Positions 52,673-61,016 of a stretch of 64,000 bases of DNA are shown in pieces. The stretch lies in NCBI GenBank assembly GCA_030147525.1, contig JASBVF010000024.1, positions 124,001 to 188,000 of the forward strand, read 5' to 3'. Below the pieces are notes generated by a model. The model did no database searches and had not been told where the DNA came from. It saw nothing but the letters and a program-made list of their open reading frames with translations. Made by a program: the position numbers and the translations under genes. Positions within the stretch are counted from its first letter, which is position 1; every line of letters begins with the position of its first letter. Origin of the DNA: Bacteroidota bacterium. GTDB taxonomy: Bacteria > Bacteroidota > Bacteroidia > Chitinophagales > Saprospiraceae.

Positions 52673-53425
52673 ATGGATTTCCTTCAAAACTTCCACCTCG
52701 ATCAAATGCAGTGGATCATGCTGACGCTGACAGCGCTGCTCATCGGCATGTCAAAAACCGGCGTGTTTGGCGTCGTCACGGTGATGGTGCCGGTGATGGC
52801 GTACCAGTTTGGCGGCAAACTTTCGACCGGGGTCATTCTGCCGATGCTCATCATGGCTGACATCTTCGCCGTAGCGTACTACCGCCGCCATGCCGAGTGG
52901 AAATATTTGATCAAACTGATCCCGTGGGCGTTTGCGGGGGTGCTGCTTGGCACCTGGGTCGGCAAGCTGATTGACGACGAGACGTTCAAATCCATCATGG
53001 GTGTGATCATTCTGGCCAGCGTCGTCATCATGATCTGGCGGGACTACCGGCGGGTGACTTCCATTCCCGATTTCTGGTGGTTTTCAATGCTGATGGGTTT
53101 GGCGGCGGGTTTCACCACAATGGTGGGCAACCTGGCGGGCGCCGTTACGGCGCTGTACTTCCTCTCGATGCGGCTGCCGAAAAATGCATTCATCGGCACG
53201 GGCGCCTGGTTTTACCTGCTGGTGAATTCGTTCAAAGTGCCGTTCCACGTTTTTTCCTGGGAGACGATCACGCTGGAGACGTTTGAGTTGAATTTGTTAA
53301 TGTTTCCGTTGATTGCGGCGGGCGCTTTTCTCGGGGTGAAAATCACGGGCTACCTGTCGGATGAGTTTTACCGGAAATTCGTGATCGGGGTGACGCTGTT
53401 GTCGGCGGGGTTGTTGTTTGTGTGA
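52673..53425 (+). CDS. TauE/SafE-family sulfite exporter-like permease
   Basis: This 250-residue membrane protein has about eight hydrophobic segments in two similar halves, as in TauE/SafE permeases. Recognisable parts are LTLTALLIGMSKTGVFG at the start, PMLIMADIFAVAYYRRHAEW, GVLLGTWVGKLI, and AGFTTMVGNLAGAVTALYFL opening the second half. The family moves sulfite, sulfoacetate or related small anions. With a sulfate reduction operon 3 kb away a sulfur role is tempting, but the two are not co-transcribed. The start at 52673 follows the DUF2306 gene by 28 bp. Confidence 0.88.
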   Translation: MDFLQNFHLDQMQWIMLTLTALLIGMSKTGVFGVVTVMVPVMAYQFGGKLSTGVILPMLIMADIFAVAYYRRHAEWKYLIKLIPWAFAGVLLGTWVGKLIDDETFKSIMGVIILASVVIMIWRDYRRVTSIPDFWWFSMLMGLAAGFTTMVGNLAGAVTALYFLSMRLPKNAFIGTGAWFYLLVNSFKVPFHVFSWETITLETFELNLLMFPLIAAGAFLGVKITGYLSDEFYRKFVIGVTLLSAGLLFV

Positions 53426-54574: not shown

Positions 54575-54656
54575 ACGCTGAGGCGCCAAGACGCAGAGCC
54601 CAAACTTAGCCAATTCAAGACTCACAAACCTCTGCGCCTTTGTGTCTCAGCGTTCA
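54572..54656. repeat. intergenic inverted repeat between convergent genes
   Basis: Arms of about 27 nt beginning TGAACGCTGAGGCG and ending with the complement, separated by about 31 nt. Pairing is interrupted in the middle. It starts in the stop region of the YkgJ gene and ends at the stop of the aminotransferase gene. Confidence 0.7.
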
Positions 54657-55895
54657 TTTTGAAAACGTCTCGCTTTGCTGCAATATGCCGTCTTCCACTT
54701 TCCCGAAAATCAGCAAATACTGCCGCAGCGCCTCCCGCAGACAGTTCAGCGCCTCCCGCAGGTCGTTTTCGTTCAAAATGTAGGCGACCCGTACCTGCCG
54801 TTTTCCAAGTTCTTTGTGAAAATAAAACCCATCAGCGGGGGCAAGCATGACCGTATTCCCGTCGAGTTCGAAATCGGTGAGCAACCACTTGCAGAAATGG
54901 GCGGCGTCGGCCACCGGTAGCTCCACCATGTTGTAAAATGCGGCATCCGGTAGGTAGCAGTTCACGCCTTCGATGCTGCGCAAACCCTCGTACAGCACAT
55001 GGCGGCGACGGTCATACTCGGCCTTCGCTTTTTCGATGTATTCCTCCGAAAATTGGTAGCAAACCTCCGCCAACTGCTGCCCGAAGTAAGGCGGACACAG
55101 CCGCAACTGCGCATATTTGTTGACGATACGCTGGATGTCTTTATTTTTTGTGATCAAATAACCCACCCTTGCGCCGCAGCTGCTGAACACTTTTGAAATG
55201 GAGTCAATCACGATCACATGCTCCTCCATACCCTCGAACGACAGCACGGAAGTGAACTCCTTGCCGTAGCAAAACTCCCGGTACACCTCGTCCACGATCA
55301 AATACAAATCGTGGCGTTTTACGAGCGCCATCAGTTTTTCCAGGTCGGAACGGCTGTAAAGCTGGCCGGTCGGGTTGCCGGGGTTGCAGAGGAAAATGGC
55401 CTTTGTTTTTGGGGTGATTAATTTTTCAAATGCCTCAGGTTCAGGGAGTTGGAATTTTTTTTCCAGCGTCGTCGTCAGTGGAACGATGCGGATGGTGCCC
55501 ATTTGGGCGAAGCCCAGATAATTGGCATAAAATGGTTCCGGGATGATCACCTCATCGTTCTGATCGCAGCAGGTGAGCAGGGTGAAAAGAATGGCTTCGG
55601 AGGCGCCCGTCGTCACGTAAACGTCTTCGGAGGAAAGGTTGGCGTCAAATTTTTGATAGTACCGGGCCACCACTTCCCGCAGCGAAGGAATGCCTTCGGA
55701 GGGGCCGTAACCCACGATTTTTTCAGTGGCGCTGCGCACCGCTTCCAGTGCCTGTGGCGGTGTTTCGATGTCCGGCTGGCCGATGTTCAGGTGGAAGATA
55801 TGCCGGCCTTTGGCCTTCGCAGCCTTGGCAAAAGGGAGCAGGCTGCGAATGGGGGAATGTGGGACTTCGTCGCCACGGTTTGAATGATTTGGCAT
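54654..55895 (-). CDS. pyridoxal-phosphate aminotransferase, class I/II
   Basis: This 413-residue protein belongs to the aspartate aminotransferase fold family. Motifs are HLNIGQPDIETPPQALEAV, YGPSEGIPSLREVVARYY, LCNPGNPTGQLYS (binding the cofactor), and SISKVFSSCGARVGYL with the PLP lysine. The final part RQVRVAYILNENDLREAL carries the substrate-carboxylate Arg. The start is the ATG at 55895; upstream in-frame TTG at 55931 is less likely. Substrate cannot be told from sequence alone. It is divergent from the sulfate operon. Confidence 0.9.
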   Translation of the reverse strand: MPNHSNRGDEVPHSPIRSLLPFAKAAKAKGRHIFHLNIGQPDIETPPQALEAVRSATEKIVGYGPSEGIPSLREVVARYYQKFDANLSSEDVYVTTGASEAILFTLLTCCDQNDEVIIPEPFYANYLGFAQMGTIRIVPLTTTLEKKFQLPEPEAFEKLITPKTKAIFLCNPGNPTGQLYSRSDLEKLMALVKRHDLYLIVDEVYREFCYGKEFTSVLSFEGMEEHVIVIDSISKVFSSCGARVGYLITKNKDIQRIVNKYAQLRLCPPYFGQQLAEVCYQFSEEYIEKAKAEYDRRRHVLYEGLRSIEGVNCYLPDAAFYNMVELPVADAAHFCKWLLTDFELDGNTVMLAPADGFYFHKELGKRQVRVAYILNENDLREALNCLREALRQYLLIFGKVEDGILQQSETFSK

Positions 55896-55979
55896 GGTGA
55901 AAAAGCTGTTTTTATCAAAAAGTAACGGCAAAGGTATTTCAAAAAGAAAGCCGTTTTGGTTAATTTTTTTTCAAAAATG

Positions 55980-56010
55980 TTGCATCTAACGTACAATCCC
56001 GCTAAGTTTG
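55980..56010 (+). promoter_or_regulatory. promoter of the cysteine leader and sulfate operon
   Basis: TTG at 55980-55982 and TAAGTTTG at 56003-56010 (perfect match to the Bacteroidota -7 consensus TAnnTTTG), spaced by 20 nt. Transcription would begin close to 56016, only about 20 nt before the first leader peptide start. Confidence 0.7.
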
Positions 56011-56035: not shown

Positions 56036-56119
56036 ATGAAGTATTTTATCATTTCCAACAATTTTCATCACAACAGCGCTTGTTGCTGTCTGTGTTGCTG
56101 TTGCTGTGAAATCCGGTAA
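56036..56119 (+). CDS. cysteine-rich leader peptide 1
   Basis: A 27-codon ORF beginning MKYFIISNNF whose residues 16-24 are CCCLCCCCC, that is eight Cys in nine codons (56081-56107). It stops with TAA and is followed 45 bp later by an intrinsic terminator. Its position between promoter and the sulfite reductase operon, its length and the codon run fit a leader peptide that senses charged tRNA-Cys. It is not expected to have a stable product. Too short for usual gene callers. Confidence 0.85.
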   Translation: MKYFIISNNFHHNSACCCLCCCCCEIR

Positions 56120-56124
56120 AATAC

Positions 56125-56179
56125 TCTGTTTTAGGTTTTTAGATACATTTTTGTTCATTCTGAAAAAACCTTTCCAGAG
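56125..56179 (+). promoter_or_regulatory. candidate antiterminator for terminator 1
   Basis: CTCTG...AGGTTTTT (56125-56140) can pair with AAAAACC...CAGAG (56164-56179), in two helices of 5 and 7 bp around a small internal loop. This uses the same bases as the 5' arm of terminator 1, so the two structures are mutually exclusive. Confidence 0.5.
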
Positions 56180-56201
56180 TAGTGTCTGGAAAGGTTTTTT
56201 T
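56164..56201 (+). terminator. attenuator terminator 1
   Basis: Perfect 15-bp stem (AAAAACCTTTCCAGA, 56164-56178; complement 56185-56199) with 6-nt loop, followed by a run of seven T residues (56195-56201). Lies between the two leader ORFs. Confidence 0.9.
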
Positions 56202-56249
56202 GTTTTGGTAAGGAATTTGAAAGCTTTAAATCATTACGATATAAATTCA

Positions 56250-56378
56250 ATGAAAATTAATTCAACATATCACATCATCAATGCAACGTCCGGGACCAGC
56301 GCCCAGGCATGTTGTTGCTGCTGTTGTTGCTGTCTGTCGGGAAATGATCTCCTGAATGGCTCCACAGTGGTTTTGTGA
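56250..56378 (+). CDS. cysteine-rich leader peptide 2
   Basis: A 42-codon ORF beginning MKINSTYHII with eight consecutive Cys codons at residues 21-28 (56310-56333), then LSGNDLLNGS and a TGA stop 25 bp before the second terminator. The codons alternate TGT and TGC irregularly, so this is selection for cysteine, not only a simple DNA repeat. It is a second cysteine leader serving the same operon. No similarity to leader 1 exists outside the Cys run. Confidence 0.85.
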   Translation: MKINSTYHIINATSGTSAQACCCCCCCCLSGNDLLNGSTVVL

Positions 56379-56403
56379 TGTTTTAAATTTCATGAAAAGC
56401 TGT

Positions 56404-56443
56404 AAAGCCCTTCCGGGAAATCGTGTTCCCGGAAGGGCTTTTT
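56404..56443 (+). terminator. attenuator terminator 2
   Basis: Perfect 16-bp GC-rich stem (AAAGCCCTTCCGGGAA, 56404-56419; complement 56426-56441) with a 6-nt loop and a T tail (56439-56443 then GTTTTT). It lies 47 bp before the sulfite reductase start. A partial antiterminator may involve GAATGGCT at 56354-56361. Confidence 0.9.
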
Positions 56444-56490: not shown

Positions 56491-58629
56491 ATGCTCGACA
56501 ACCTACACCTCCACCGCCTGAACGAAGCCGACAAGGCCGATATCATCGAACTGGCCGAACGCACGGCCGCCTTCCGCAGCGGCAAGGAAGACTCCGAACG
56601 TTTCCGCCATTTTCGCCTCACACGAGGCGTGTACGGCCAGCGTCAGCAAAACGTGCAGATGTTCCGCACAAAAATTCCCTTCGGAAAACTGACCGCCGAA
56701 CAGCTCATCGTGCTGGCCGATTTGTCGGATAAGTATTCCAACGGAAAACTGCACCTGACTACCCGCCAGAACGTGCAATTGCACTACGTCCCGCTCGAAG
56801 ACGCTACCAAAATCTGGGTCGGTTTGGCGCAGGCTGGCATGACCGGCCGGGAAGCCTGCGGTAACACCGTGCGCAACATCACCGCCTCCGCTAATGCAGG
56901 CATTGATCCGAATGAACCGTTCGATGTCTCGCCCTACGTGCAGGCGATGTTTGAATACTTCCTTCGTAACCCGATTTGCCAGGACATGGGACGGAAGATC
57001 AAGACGGCATTTTCGTCGAGCGAAAAGGATTCGGCTTTCACCTACATCCACGACTTTGGTTTTATCCCAAAAGTAAAAATCGTGGACGGCAAGCCTGTTC
57101 GGGGCTTCAAAGTGCTGGTGGCTGGCGGACTCGGCGCACAGGCTATTCCGGCCCACGTGGCGCATGAGTTTCTGGAAGAAGACCTGCTCATTCCGTTCAA
57201 GGAAGCGGCGCTGCGGGTGTTCGACCGCTACGGCGAGCGGGAAAAGCGGATGAAGGCGAGGATGAAATTTTTGGTGCAAAAAATCGGGCTGGAAACCTTC
57301 CTTGAATTGGTGGAAGCCGAACGCAAAGCCCTGAAACACCAGCGCTATCCAATCGACCGGACGCTGGTGCAGGTGGCAGCCCTACCCGCTGAAAAGCCGT
57401 TGCCGGAGATCATCCTGCCCGATCTGAAAAAATATTCCGACTGGCTGAGAACCAATGTTTTTGAACAAAAACAAAAAGGATTTTTTGCGGTGCAACTCAA
57501 GGTGCGCCTCGGCAATCTGACCTCGGACGATGCCCGTAAACTGGCTGCCCTGGTGAAAAAATTCGCTGCCGATGACATCCGAATCACGATGAACCAGGGC
57601 CTGGTGCTGCGATTCGTGCGTGAAAATGCACTGCCACATTTGTTCGACGGTCTCGATGAGCTTGGGCTCGGCGACCCTGGCTTTGACTCCACGGCGGACG
57701 TGACGGCTTGCCCCGGCACAGATACCTGCGCCCTCGGCGTGACCAACAGCACGGGCATTGCGCAGCAACTCGAAAATGTCGTTCGGGAAGAGTATCCGCA
57801 CCTGCTGGAGGAGACGAATTTGAAAATAAAAATCAGCGGCTGCATGAATTCCTGCGGCCAGCACATGGCTTCCAACATCGGTTTCCACGGCAGTTCGCTG
57901 AAGCGTGACAACCAGGTGGTACCTGCCCTGCAGGTCGTACTCGGCGGCGGCGTCGATCCTGACGGAACTGGTCAACTGGCAGAAAAAATCATCAAACTGC
58001 CCACCCGCCGCATCCCCGCCGCCCTCCGTCTCGTACTCGACGACTACGAGCAAAACGCTGAGAATGAATATTTTAACCAATATTTCCGGCGGCAGGACAA
58101 GCGCTATTTTTATGATTTACTGAAACCGCTGGCCGACCTGAACACCTTGCAGGACGAGGAACTTTTTGACTGGGGTCAAACGCAGGAGTACGTCCAGTCC
58201 ATCGGCGTCGGCGAGTGCGCCGGGGTTGCCCTCGACGTGGTCGGGGCCATCATCGGCGATGCACAGAGCAAGGTGGAAGCGGCCCGGAAGTACCTTTCGA
58301 AAGATGCATTTGCCGAGGCGATTTACAGCGCTTACACGGCTTTCGTGATCGGCGCCAAGGCGGCGTTGCTGGCCAAAGACGTGCGCTGCAACACCCACAT
58401 CGGCATTCTGGAAGATTTTCAAACGCACTACGTTGAGACCGGCGATTTCACGCTCGAAACGGGTGAAGCAGACTTCGTCCACCATGTTCTGCAAAGCAAC
58501 CAGCACGAACCGAAGGCGGATTTTGCCACTCGCTACCTGGCCCAGGCTGATGTTTTTTTGAAAAAAATCATCCGGCTGCGGGAAGCCCAGTTGGTTGACA
58601 AAGTCGTGCTTGAAAATTATCGTGCTTAA
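56491..58629 (+). CDS. siroheme-dependent sulfite (nitrite/sulfite) reductase with C-terminal extension
   Basis: This 712-residue enzyme reduces sulfite to sulfide (or nitrite to ammonia) using siroheme and a [4Fe-4S] cluster. Cluster ligands are Cys407 and Cys413 (ACPGTDTC) and Cys451 and Cys455 (SGCMNSCGQ). The substrate motifs TTRQNVQLHYVP and CGNTVRNI are present in the first repeat. Ferredoxin-type reductases have about 550-580 residues; here about 140 more form a helical C-terminal domain (CAGVALDVVGAIIGDAQSK, then FAEAIYSAYTAFVIGAKAAL). Operon partners (siroheme synthesis, APS reductase) and cysteine leaders favour sulfite as substrate. Confidence 0.93.
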   Translation: MLDNLHLHRLNEADKADIIELAERTAAFRSGKEDSERFRHFRLTRGVYGQRQQNVQMFRTKIPFGKLTAEQLIVLADLSDKYSNGKLHLTTRQNVQLHYVPLEDATKIWVGLAQAGMTGREACGNTVRNITASANAGIDPNEPFDVSPYVQAMFEYFLRNPICQDMGRKIKTAFSSSEKDSAFTYIHDFGFIPKVKIVDGKPVRGFKVLVAGGLGAQAIPAHVAHEFLEEDLLIPFKEAALRVFDRYGEREKRMKARMKFLVQKIGLETFLELVEAERKALKHQRYPIDRTLVQVAALPAEKPLPEIILPDLKKYSDWLRTNVFEQKQKGFFAVQLKVRLGNLTSDDARKLAALVKKFAADDIRITMNQGLVLRFVRENALPHLFDGLDELGLGDPGFDSTADVTACPGTDTCALGVTNSTGIAQQLENVVREEYPHLLEETNLKIKISGCMNSCGQHMASNIGFHGSSLKRDNQVVPALQVVLGGGVDPDGTGQLAEKIIKLPTRRIPAALRLVLDDYEQNAENEYFNQYFRRQDKRYFYDLLKPLADLNTLQDEELFDWGQTQEYVQSIGVGECAGVALDVVGAIIGDAQSKVEAARKYLSKDAFAEAIYSAYTAFVIGAKAALLAKDVRCNTHIGILEDFQTHYVETGDFTLETGEADFVHHVLQSNQHEPKADFATRYLAQADVFLKKIIRLREAQLVDKVVLENYRA

Positions 58630-58734: not shown

Positions 58735-59505
58735 ATGTCCACATCCATCACACCGAAAATCACACTCGTAGGCGCCGGTCCCGGCGACCCGGAACTCATC
58801 ACGCTGAAAGGCATTCGTGCCCTGCGCAAGGCGGACGTCGTGCTGTACGACGCACTGGCCAGCAACGAACTGCTCGATTTCGCACCGCCGGAGTCGCTCA
58901 AGGTTTACGTCGGTAAACGGGCCGGCAAACACTCCATGAAACAGGAGGAAATCAGCCTGCTGATGGTGCAGTTTGCCTACTCCCACGGCCACGTGGTGCG
59001 GCTGAAAGGCGGCGATCCGTTCGTTTTCGGGCGGGGCTACGAGGAGGTGGAATTTGCCCGGAATTTTAACATCCCGGTGGAAGTGGTGCCGGGAATCACC
59101 AGCGCTGTGGCCGTGCCCGGCCTGCAAGGCATTCCGTTGACCAGCCGGAACGTAAGCGAAAGTTTCTGGGTGCTCACAGGGACGACAAAAGACGAACAAC
59201 TGTCGAACGACCTGCGCCTGGCAGCGCAATCTTCCGCCACGCTGGTCATTTTGATGGGGGTGGGCAAGCTGCCGCAAATTGCGAAGCTGCTCGCCAGCCA
59301 CGGCAAGGCGGACGTGCCCGCCATGGTCATCCAGCACGGCTCGACACCGAAGGAAAAAATGGCCATCGGCACGGTCGGCACCATTTCAGGCATCGTGAAG
59401 GAAAAAGGCATCGGTACGCCCGGTATCATCGTCATTGGCGAGGTGGTAGGTCTGCACGAGTCGGTGCTGGAAACGGTGGCCGTTCAAAATATCGAACACA
59501 TTTAA
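58735..59505 (+). CDS. cobA: uroporphyrinogen-III C-methyltransferase
   Basis: This 256-residue SAM-dependent enzyme methylates uroporphyrinogen III twice to make precorrin-2 for siroheme. Signature motifs are VGAGPGDPELITLKGIRAL (about 10-28), VVLYDALAS, RLKGGDPFVFGRGYEEVEF and VVPGITSAVAVPG, and MVIQHGSTPKEK near the end. Length matches stand-alone CobA. It sits between the siroheme enzyme and the next siroheme-biosynthesis gene. Confidence 0.96.
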   Translation: MSTSITPKITLVGAGPGDPELITLKGIRALRKADVVLYDALASNELLDFAPPESLKVYVGKRAGKHSMKQEEISLLMVQFAYSHGHVVRLKGGDPFVFGRGYEEVEFARNFNIPVEVVPGITSAVAVPGLQGIPLTSRNVSESFWVLTGTTKDEQLSNDLRLAAQSSATLVILMGVGKLPQIAKLLASHGKADVPAMVIQHGSTPKEKMAIGTVGTISGIVKEKGIGTPGIIVIGEVVGLHESVLETVAVQNIEHI

Positions 59506-59611: not shown

Positions 59612-60214
59612 ATGACAACTCAAACAGTACTCAATCCATTGTATCCCATTTTTTTGAAACTGCACGAACTCGACCTGCTTATCGTCGGAGCGGGCGAGGT
59701 GGGGCACGAAAAACTTTTTTTCATGCTGAAAAACAGCCCGAAAGCCAACGTGACGATCGTTGCGCCGTGGGTTTCACCAAAAATTGAAGCGTTGCTGGCT
59801 GAAAATCCCGGCCACCGGGTGACTTTCCGCCGGCGGGCATTCCAGTCGACAGATGTCGTTGGTTTTCAATTGGTTATTGCAGCGACGAATGATCGGTCGC
59901 TCAATGAATCTGTCCGGGAAGCGGCCAAATCCTGGGGGGCTCTCGTCAACGTGGCAGACACGCCAGACCTTTGCGATTTTTACCTCGGAGCCGTGGTGAC
60001 GAGGGGCGATTTGAAAATCGCTATTTCAACAAACGGAAAATCTCCTACATTTGCGAAGCGCTTCCGGCAACTTTTGGAAGAAGCGCTCCCTGCCAATACG
60101 CCAAACCTGTTAAAAAATCTTCATTCGCTAAGATCAAGGCTGACAGGTGATTTCGCTCAAAAAGTGGACCGCCTCAATGATTTGACCGCCTCGCTGGTGG
60201 ATCGGAAAAATTGA
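59612..60214 (+). CDS. precorrin-2 dehydrogenase / sirohydrochlorin ferrochelatase-like (siroheme synthase N-domain)
   Basis: This 200-residue protein resembles Met8p and the N-terminal half of CysG: PIFLKLHELDLLIVGAGEVG opens the NAD-binding fold, then ATNDRSLNESVREAAK, VNVADTPDLCDFYLGAVVTR and IAISTNGKSPTFAKRFRQLL with the conserved Asp of NVAD. It oxidises precorrin-2 to sirohydrochlorin and, in bifunctional members, inserts iron. Whether ferrochelation occurs here or by another enzyme cannot be told. It completes siroheme synthesis beside its user. Confidence 0.93.
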   Translation: MTTQTVLNPLYPIFLKLHELDLLIVGAGEVGHEKLFFMLKNSPKANVTIVAPWVSPKIEALLAENPGHRVTFRRRAFQSTDVVGFQLVIAATNDRSLNESVREAAKSWGALVNVADTPDLCDFYLGAVVTRGDLKIAISTNGKSPTFAKRFRQLLEEALPANTPNLLKNLHSLRSRLTGDFAQKVDRLNDLTASLVDRKN

Positions 60215-60263: not shown

Positions 60264-61016
60264 ATGACATTGACTGCTGAAAACATCCAATCCGTCCAGA
60301 CAAAAACGAATGAATGGCAAGACATCAGCGTCGAACTGCTCAACCACATTTTCACGCCGTTGACTTTTCAGGAGCGCATTCGTCTGCTCTACAAGTATTT
60401 TAAAACGGACGACGTGCTGCTGACCTCGTCTTTTGGTACCAACTCCGTTTTCCTGCTCTACTGGATACAGGATATCCAGCCGGAGCAAAAGGTACATTTC
60501 ATCGACACGACCTATCATTTTCCGGAAACGCTGGCGTACAAGGAAGAGCTCACCCAACGGTTCAATCTGAAGGTGGTGGACGTATTGCCAGAGCCGGATG
60601 GAAACGCCCTCACCCGTGAGGAGCGGTGGTGGAAAGACCACCCCCGCATGTGCTGCAGCATCAATAAAGTGGTGCCGCTGGAGCCGGTGAAGGCCCGGCA
60701 CAAGGTCTGGATTTCAGGTTTGATGGCTTTCCAGACAGAGTTCCGCTCCCACCTGCGGGTGTTCGAACGGCAGGGCGACATCCTCAAATTTCACCCGATG
60801 GTGGACATCGACGAAGGGGAGGTTCTCTACTATTTTTCCCTGCACAATCTGCCCGAACACCCGCTGAAAGCACAGGGTTACGGCTCGGTCGGCTGCTCGC
60901 ATTGCACCCAGAAAGGCGAAGGCCGGGAGGGGCGCTGGAAGGGGCAGAACCGGACAGAGTGCGGCCTGCATCCGGGGTATTTTATCAACCGGAAAAACGG
61001 GCAATCGGCAAAATGA
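60264..61016 (+). CDS. cysH: [4Fe-4S] adenylylsulfate reductase (CysH family)
   Basis: This 250-residue enzyme reduces APS or PAPS to sulfite with thioredoxin. PP-loop start LLTSSFGTNSVFLLYWIQD, with FIDTTYHFPETLAYKEEL; the cluster Cys pair Cys130-Cys131 (RMCCSINK), Cys211 and Cys214 (GCSHC); and the catalytic Cys233 in ECGLH. The Cys pair and CxxC indicate the iron-sulfur form, which usually prefers APS. The ATG at 60264 gives the usual length; an upstream start at 60219 would extend it without homology. It is the last gene of the operon; ATP sulfurylase is not in this window. Confidence 0.95.
   Translation: MTLTAENIQSVQTKTNEWQDISVELLNHIFTPLTFQERIRLLYKYFKTDDVLLTSSFGTNSVFLLYWIQDIQPEQKVHFIDTTYHFPETLAYKEELTQRFNLKVVDVLPEPDGNALTREERWWKDHPRMCCSINKVVPLEPVKARHKVWISGLMAFQTEFRSHLRVFERQGDILKFHPMVDIDEGEVLYYFSLHNLPEHPLKAQGYGSVGCSHCTQKGEGREGRWKGQNRTECGLHPGYFINRKNGQSAK

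Follow-up and report, generated by a model that had tools for sequence, protein, structure and literature searches.

Tandem cysteine-codon leaders with terminators ahead of a sulfite reductase operon in Saprospiraceae: a probable doubled attenuator

Why should two short open reading frames (ORFs) packed with cysteine codons, each followed by its own terminator, stand in front of a single operon? A leader region in a Saprospiraceae genome (Bacteroidota) raises this question. It lies in a window of 64,000 nt (contig JASBVF010000024.1, positions 124001 to 188000, forward strand), the whole stretch of DNA analysed here, in which all positions below are numbered. The reading we prefer, with a probability of about 80%, is cysteine-responsive, ribosome-mediated transcription attenuation, in which two complete units in series sense charged tRNA-Cys ahead of the sulfite reductase–siroheme–cysH genes.

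Anatomy of the leader region and its operon

The leader region, its upstream neighbour and the genes behind it comprise the following features.

54654-55931, minus strand: divergent PLP aminotransferase gene, the upstream neighbour of the leader region
56003-56010, plus strand: probable promoter −7 box, TAAGTTTG, assigned from its match to the TAnnTTTG motif
56036-56119, plus strand: leader ORF 1, 27 aa, MKYFIISNNFHHNSACCCLCCCCCEIR, conserved upstream of the sulfite reductase gene (sir) in relatives
56122-56141, plus strand: 5′ strand of antiterminator 1, with its partner at about 56165-56181 (minimum-free-energy fold, duplex test)
56163-56201, plus strand: terminator 1, a perfect 16-bp stem with a 6-nt loop and T7 (sequence, fold)
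56250 (ATG) to 56378 (end of stop codon), plus strand: leader ORF 2, 42 aa, MKINSTYHIINATSGTSAQACCCCCCCCLSGNDLLNGSTVVL, conserved in relatives
56350-56361, plus strand: 5′ strand of antiterminator 2, with its partner at about 56406-56418 (fold with an intervening hairpin)
56404-56443, plus strand: terminator 2, a perfect 16-bp stem with a 6-nt loop and T5 (sequence, fold)
56491-58629, plus strand: siroheme nitrite/sulfite reductase, 712 aa (Pfam NIR_SIR, NIR_SIR_ferr)
58735-59505, plus strand: uroporphyrinogen-III C-methyltransferase (TIGR01469, 279.5 bits, above cut-off)
59612-60214, plus strand: siroheme synthase N-terminal domain, precorrin-2 dehydrogenase (TIGR01470, 121.6 bits, above cut-off)
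60264-61016, plus strand: CysH, (P)APS reductase (NF002537, 191 bits, above cut-off; Pfam PAPS_reduct)

An initial annotation of this DNA had described two tandem Cys leaders, each with a terminator, before a sulfite reductase operon, and the sequence bears this out. As it had stated, ORF 1 carries eight Cys in nine codons (56081-56107, CCCLCCCCC), ORF 2 carries eight consecutive Cys codons (56310-56333), and terminator 2 is a perfect 16-bp hairpin (arms 56404-56419 and 56426-56441, 100% complementary, T5 at 56439-56443). Terminator 1, described there as a 15-bp stem, has 16 bp, likewise 100% complementary (arms 56163-56178 and 56185-56200, T7 at 56195-56201). The coordinates given for the features were otherwise right, with the start of ORF 2 corrected to 56250. 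The promoter placed before leader 1 is probable: TAAGTTTG at 56003-56010 fits TAnnTTTG, the Bacteroidota −7 motif. The putative box ends 25 nt before the leader 1 ATG, a distance that hints at a short 5′ UTR. Near the start of leader 2, the window (56250-56270, MKINSTYH) shares a conserved STYH with its two nearest relatives by sir, L006 and L007 (79% and 82% identity; MDSKSTYH and MNSKSTYH).

The operon behind the leaders serves the synthesis of cysteine, matching the codons that fill them. Pfam, TIGR and NF models identify the siroheme sulfite reductase, the two siroheme genes and cysH that the initial annotation had listed downstream, with the last, there called APS reductase, matching the broader (P)APS reductase class; its CC/CxxC pairs presumably fit the 4Fe-4S APS type. 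A TauE/SafE-type sulfite exporter family protein is encoded at 52673-53425, a few kb upstream of the operon. An Rfam search gave 23 matches with E values of up to 5, but each fell short of its gathering score, so that neither a T-box nor a SAM riboswitch nor any other Rfam riboswitch or leader was recognised; the best-fitting name, His_leader, reached 25.4 bits against a gathering score of 49. The leader peptides matched no NCBIfam model at E up to 1.

Cysteine leaders in related and distant loci

To survey the leaders beyond the window, we looked for sulfite reductase relatives in 84,980 species genomes, kept the best 80 of 313, and searched 1 kb upstream of sir in the 78 loci with at least 300 nt of upstream sequence. 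An ORF counted as a Cys leader if it held four Cys in six codons, and a terminator had to reach −10 kcal/mol or better. By this main criterion, 58 of the 78 loci from the best 80 of 313 relatives contain 80 Cys ORFs, with two in 22 loci; 69 of the 80 are terminated, and 51 loci have at least one terminated Cys ORF and 18 have two. Cys-run ORFs with terminators therefore recur upstream of related sulfite reductase genes, as the initial annotation had suggested looking for. It had named absence of the Cys runs from close relatives as grounds for dropping the idea; on that count it survives, each of L006 and L007 having the two leaders with their terminators.

Controls yielded next to nothing. 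The reverse strand gave one Cys ORF in 78 loci and a region 2–3 kb upstream gave one in 54, each lacking a terminator; dinucleotide shuffles gave 6 in 1,560, none with a terminator; the first 1,000 nt of the sir coding sequence (0/78) and the 1 kb downstream (0/71) gave none. Relaxed criteria (three Cys in five codons, an ATG start and a terminator 5–70 nt past the stop) found leaders in 56 of 78 loci, of which 18 were double and 38 single, with 22 loci lacking one; there were no triple leaders in the 78 loci, and none of 390 shuffles scored. Twenty of the 78 loci lack a main-criterion leader, eight of them having a weaker three-Cys leader with a terminator, and in 7 of the 58 loci that have Cys ORFs, none of these is terminated. 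The first Cys ORF before sir in Marinoscillum (L046, L063) and the sole one in Phaeodactylibacter xiamenensis (L060) lack an intrinsic terminator, recalling, by analogy, the mycobacterial form. All 18 relatives with two terminated leaders (among the best 80 of 313) are metagenome-assembled genomes.

From 120 family genomes drawn separately, 44 had sir and 29 loci were read: 24 had a leader, 22 a terminated one and 15 two terminated ones. The best-80 set already included 12 of these 29 contigs; counted apart, the other 17 comprise 14 with a leader, 12 with a terminated leader and 10 with two. A (TGY)6 run is present in 52 of 61 family genomes. Among 61 run loci read from a longer list, a terminated five-Cys ORF is present in eight. 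Six of the eight lie before sir, all of them doubled (L119, L120, L141, L186, L195 and L197), and the other two (L135, L183), with no gene start within 700 nt, look like chance. A phylum-wide draw of 296 genomes, of which 124 had some sir match, many of them remote, was read directly upstream of sir. It found a four-Cys leader in 2 of 38 loci (the window's own excluded), both single and both in the window's family, and a three-Cys leader with a terminator in two others. In many of these genomes sir may sit inside an operon.

A trinucleotide repeat or chance origin of the runs is ruled out by the controls, by codon usage and by reading frame. TGT and TGC are mixed within the Cys runs of 101 of 107 leaders, so the runs are not a DNA repeat. 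An ATG within 45 codons occurs in the Cys frame for 67 of 69 runs, but for only 5 in the Val/Ala frame and 17 in the Leu frame; this frame conservation suggests that the leader ORFs are translated. Outside the Cys run, the leader peptides vary freely between relatives.

The window's own genome shows that the leaders extend to operons that the initial annotation had not covered, those for CysM-Mec-CysO and a peroxiredoxin. Its 7.08 Mb contain (TGY)4TG at 26 places (21 distinct sites after merging), and at four of the 21 the run shares its frame with an ATG and is followed by a strong terminator; the window leaders account for two of the four. At a fifth (L086), the hairpin is weaker, with 9 bp, and the Cys frame has no ATG. 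One of the other two is a single Cys leader, MTIQIHIAACCCCCTIPLRKGGGVLH, with a terminator before a CysM–JAMM–ThiS-like–ThiF-like operon (L103:1476-1560 and 1644-2585, on C54 of the same genome). Here CysM-like denotes a PALP enzyme, and the ThiS-like and ThiF-like genes were named by eye from their sequences. We take the operon to resemble the CysO-CysM-Mec route of Mycobacterium, and it probably encodes a sulfur-carrier route to cysteine. Sulfite reductase and CysM-Mec-CysO both serve cysteine synthesis, so the targets fit Cys attenuation. Terminated Cys leaders precede seven of eight close CysM orthologues (at least 55% identity, the window genome's own included), with two leaders in five of the eight. 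None of the seven orthologues from other genomes comes from one of the 44 genomes in which sir was found, and a sir search in four genomes with a close orthologue (G005, G011, G024 and G028) gave no match; the leader before cysM is often doubled in relatives without sir. Beyond the close orthologues (at most 43% identity), 0 of 22 PALP enzymes, 20 of them with at least 600 nt upstream, had a Cys leader.

The remaining leader of the genome, with six Cys and a terminator, precedes a peroxiredoxin gene (L100 and L004; C46:201376-202177, minus strand), which may place a peroxide enzyme under the control of cysteine status. The leader also occurs in one relative (L264). As a conserved feature it was rejected, since only 2 of the 30 loci read have a terminated leader, one of them from the window's own genome. 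At another locus, the doubled Cys leaders are separated from cysM by a shortened peroxiredoxin-like ORF (L213:1051-1410), which suggests that the leader moved between peroxiredoxin and cysM genes. No Cys leader was found at the genome's own cysC-cysD-cysN operon or its cysE-linked operon.

Antiterminators, ribosome spacing and serial order

Attenuation by a translating ribosome calls for a second structure that competes with the terminator. In a duplex test, we paired the sequence that runs from the last Cys codon up to the terminator with the terminator 5′ arm and compared the result with shuffles, using 73 leaders (69 from relatives, the two of the window and two others of the window's genome). 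Pairing is better than in shuffles, with a mean z of −1.76; individually, 29 of the 73 leaders reach p < 0.05 and 13 reach p < 0.01, while 44 miss p < 0.05. Leader 1 of the window scores z −2.3 (p 0.045), leader 2 taken alone is not significant (z −1.1, p 0.124), and the peroxiredoxin leader has a strong antiterminator (z −5.3). When the window RNAs are ended before the terminator 3′ arm, both fold into antiterminators, at −16.8 kcal/mol for leader 1 (z −3.9, 0 of 200 shuffles as good) and, with an intervening hairpin, −24.3 kcal/mol for leader 2 (z −3.4, 2 of 200 as good). Adding the terminator 3′ arm switches both folds from antiterminator to terminator. A mutually exclusive antiterminator that shares the terminator 5′ arm is hence a property of the leader set, with window leader 2 at p 0.124 in the duplex test.

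This pairing is specific to each leader. Across 107 non-redundant leaders (93 before sir, 12 before cysM and 2 before peroxiredoxin), the antiterminator strand prefers its own terminator arm over those of other leaders by a residual of −2.74 kcal/mol, 13 times the permutation SD of 0.21, although related leaders are counted several times in these tests and the SD number is not a probability; the lowest of 5,000 permutations reached −0.69. Single (−2.82), first (−2.80) and second leaders (−2.60) behave alike. Within doubled loci, the own arm is preferred over that of the neighbouring unit in 24 and 25 of 34 loci for the two modules, and the preference fails in about a quarter.

The pairing begins a median of 15 nt past the last Cys codon (quartiles 12 and 18), against 24 nt (10 and 37) in shuffles, and starts at 10–20 nt in 75% of the 107 leaders but in 20% of shuffles. 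A ribosome reaches 12–15 nt from its P site, according to PMC3641672, so the pairing starts where the front edge of a ribosome halted at the last Cys codon would lie. If a ribosome sat at the stop codon, it would shield half or more of the antiterminator strand in 65% of the 107 leaders and leave it untouched in 17%. Terminators start a median of 27–32 nt past the leader stop codon.

Together these features suggest how each unit might work. With Cys-tRNA plentiful, the ribosome would read through the Cys codons and cover the antiterminator 5′ strand, the terminator hairpin would form, and RNA polymerase would stop. With Cys-tRNA scarce, the ribosome would stall in the Cys run with its front edge just before that strand, which would be left free to pair with the terminator 5′ arm and let polymerase pass. 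Release by ribosomes stalled at Cys codons had been proposed in the initial annotation; it gains computational support from the pairing relative to shuffles, the own-arm preference with its 15-nt spacing and the Cys-frame ATGs. A polymerase starting upstream would have to clear both leaders, whereby the read-through probabilities would multiply, giving a lower leak and a steeper response.

Whether the two units do stand in series depends on where transcription begins. If each attenuator had a promoter of its own, leader 2 could be the start of a second transcript; each leader is after all a complete unit, and the gap between terminator 1 and leader 2 reaches 232 nt among 34 doubled loci, so that some have room for a promoter. 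The median gap is only 36 nt, however, and of 72 loci, 22 have TAnnTTTG, the one motif tried, in the 120 nt ahead of their first or only leader; ahead of the second leader it occurs in 2 of 34, not above the shuffled rate of 9% (0.092). Since this excess is confined to the first leader, the two leaders appear to act in series, as the initial annotation had held; transcription would run through both from one promoter, and we regard the two-promoter arrangement as unlikely.

Two other explanations strike us as less likely still. The ORFs might encode functional poly-Cys peptides for metal or redox binding, the hairpins being the ordinary terminators of these small genes, as the strong terminators after 69 of the 80 Cys ORFs and the peroxiredoxin behind one such leader would allow. 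Free variation of the peptides outside the Cys run speaks against this, as do antiterminator strands about 15 nt past the Cys codons, which are not expected for peptide genes, and the position of the leaders before cysteine-synthesis genes; such a role is highly improbable. Just as improbable, in our judgment, is action via Rho or translation with the intrinsic terminators secondary, which PMC1262725 suggests for mycobacterial leaders. The terminatorless Cys ORFs of L060 and of leader 1 in L046 and L063 would suit it, whereas a terminated leader is present in 51 of the 58 loci that have any leader, and the antiterminator pairs with the terminator arm itself.

A recent duplication of one leader is not supported: mean likeness of leaders 1 and 2 within a locus (25.2) is barely above that between loci (23.8, SD 4.0). 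Mapped onto a tree of 106 sulfite reductases, doubling requires at least 11 changes against 29.6 in label shuffles (minimum 24), a count lowered somewhat by a few near-identical rows in the tree. So few changes indicate that doubling is inherited within clades, with repeated gain or loss.

Relation to known attenuators and tandem switches

We lean, by a narrow margin, toward a broader interpretation, in which peptide attenuators doubled for a single signal are a conserved class in Saprospiraceae-type Bacteroidota. Whichever operon chiefly supplies cysteine (sir, or CysM-Mec-CysO in species without sir) would be placed under two serial Cys-codon checkpoints. These would be the counterpart, built on ribosomes, of pseudo-cooperative tandem riboswitches, and selection would have favoured tight shut-off and a steep dependence on tRNA-Cys charging. 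Attenuation at these leaders would add cysteine to the amino acids under terminator-based leader-peptide control in Bacteroidota, and two cysteine routes and a peroxiredoxin would be linked to one readout, tRNA-Cys charging. The related genomes also offer a natural series with none, one or two attenuators, in which the gain from doubling a switch is measurable.

The trp-type attenuator of E. coli combines a short ORF rich in the codon of the end product, an antiterminator and a terminator that share a strand, and a biosynthetic operon behind them. The window leaders share all three elements, but unlike the trp type they form two complete serial units for one amino acid, cysteine, in a Bacteroidota host. 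Classical amino-acid leader-peptide attenuators of this kind are summarised in PMC3641672. Mycobacteria reportedly carry poly-Cys leaderless uORFs (Canestrari 2020), and Cys leader peptides have been proposed in Actinobacteria (PMC1262725); like the window leaders, both have Cys-codon runs before sulfur-assimilation genes and a proposed cysteine response. PMC1262725 gives no conserved terminators for mycobacteria, whereas the window has strong intrinsic terminators and antiterminators, often doubled in relatives. Another parallel is the uORFC-8-2 motif before cysS in Rhodobacterales, which, according to PMC8632094, combines a Cys-codon uORF, an intrinsic terminator and proposed release at low Cys-tRNA, as do the window leaders, but has two Cys codons, a single unit, a cysteinyl-tRNA synthetase target and a host in another phylum.

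Doubled leaders and doubled switches also have precedents. The Salmonella mgtCBR leader mRNA likewise contains two leader ORFs, tandem attenuators that its authors call a “singular example” (PMC3641672); its signals are ATP and proline and it has no intrinsic terminators, whereas both window leaders carry Cys runs and each is followed by an intrinsic terminator. Two leader peptides also precede ermB, where attenuation is given as translational and induced by erythromycin (PMC8274638). Within Bacteroidota, PMC9723704 refers in a general way to leader-peptide attenuation ahead of amino-acid operons in flavobacteria, and PMC7366714 describes leader-like small ORFs in Bacteroides thetaiotaomicron. 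In the open-access literature, we found neither a same-signal doubled amino-acid transcription attenuator nor, for Bacteroidota, any Cys attenuator. Tandem riboswitches that respond to a single ligand are well established (e.g., the pseudo-cooperative tandem TPP riboswitches, PMC9481103), and they too have two complete one-signal switches in series and a proposed steeper response; there the sensor is an aptamer, whereas in the window it would be a ribosome translating Cys codons. The principle is already known from trp-type attenuators, mycobacterial poly-Cys leaders, mgtCBR and tandem riboswitches.
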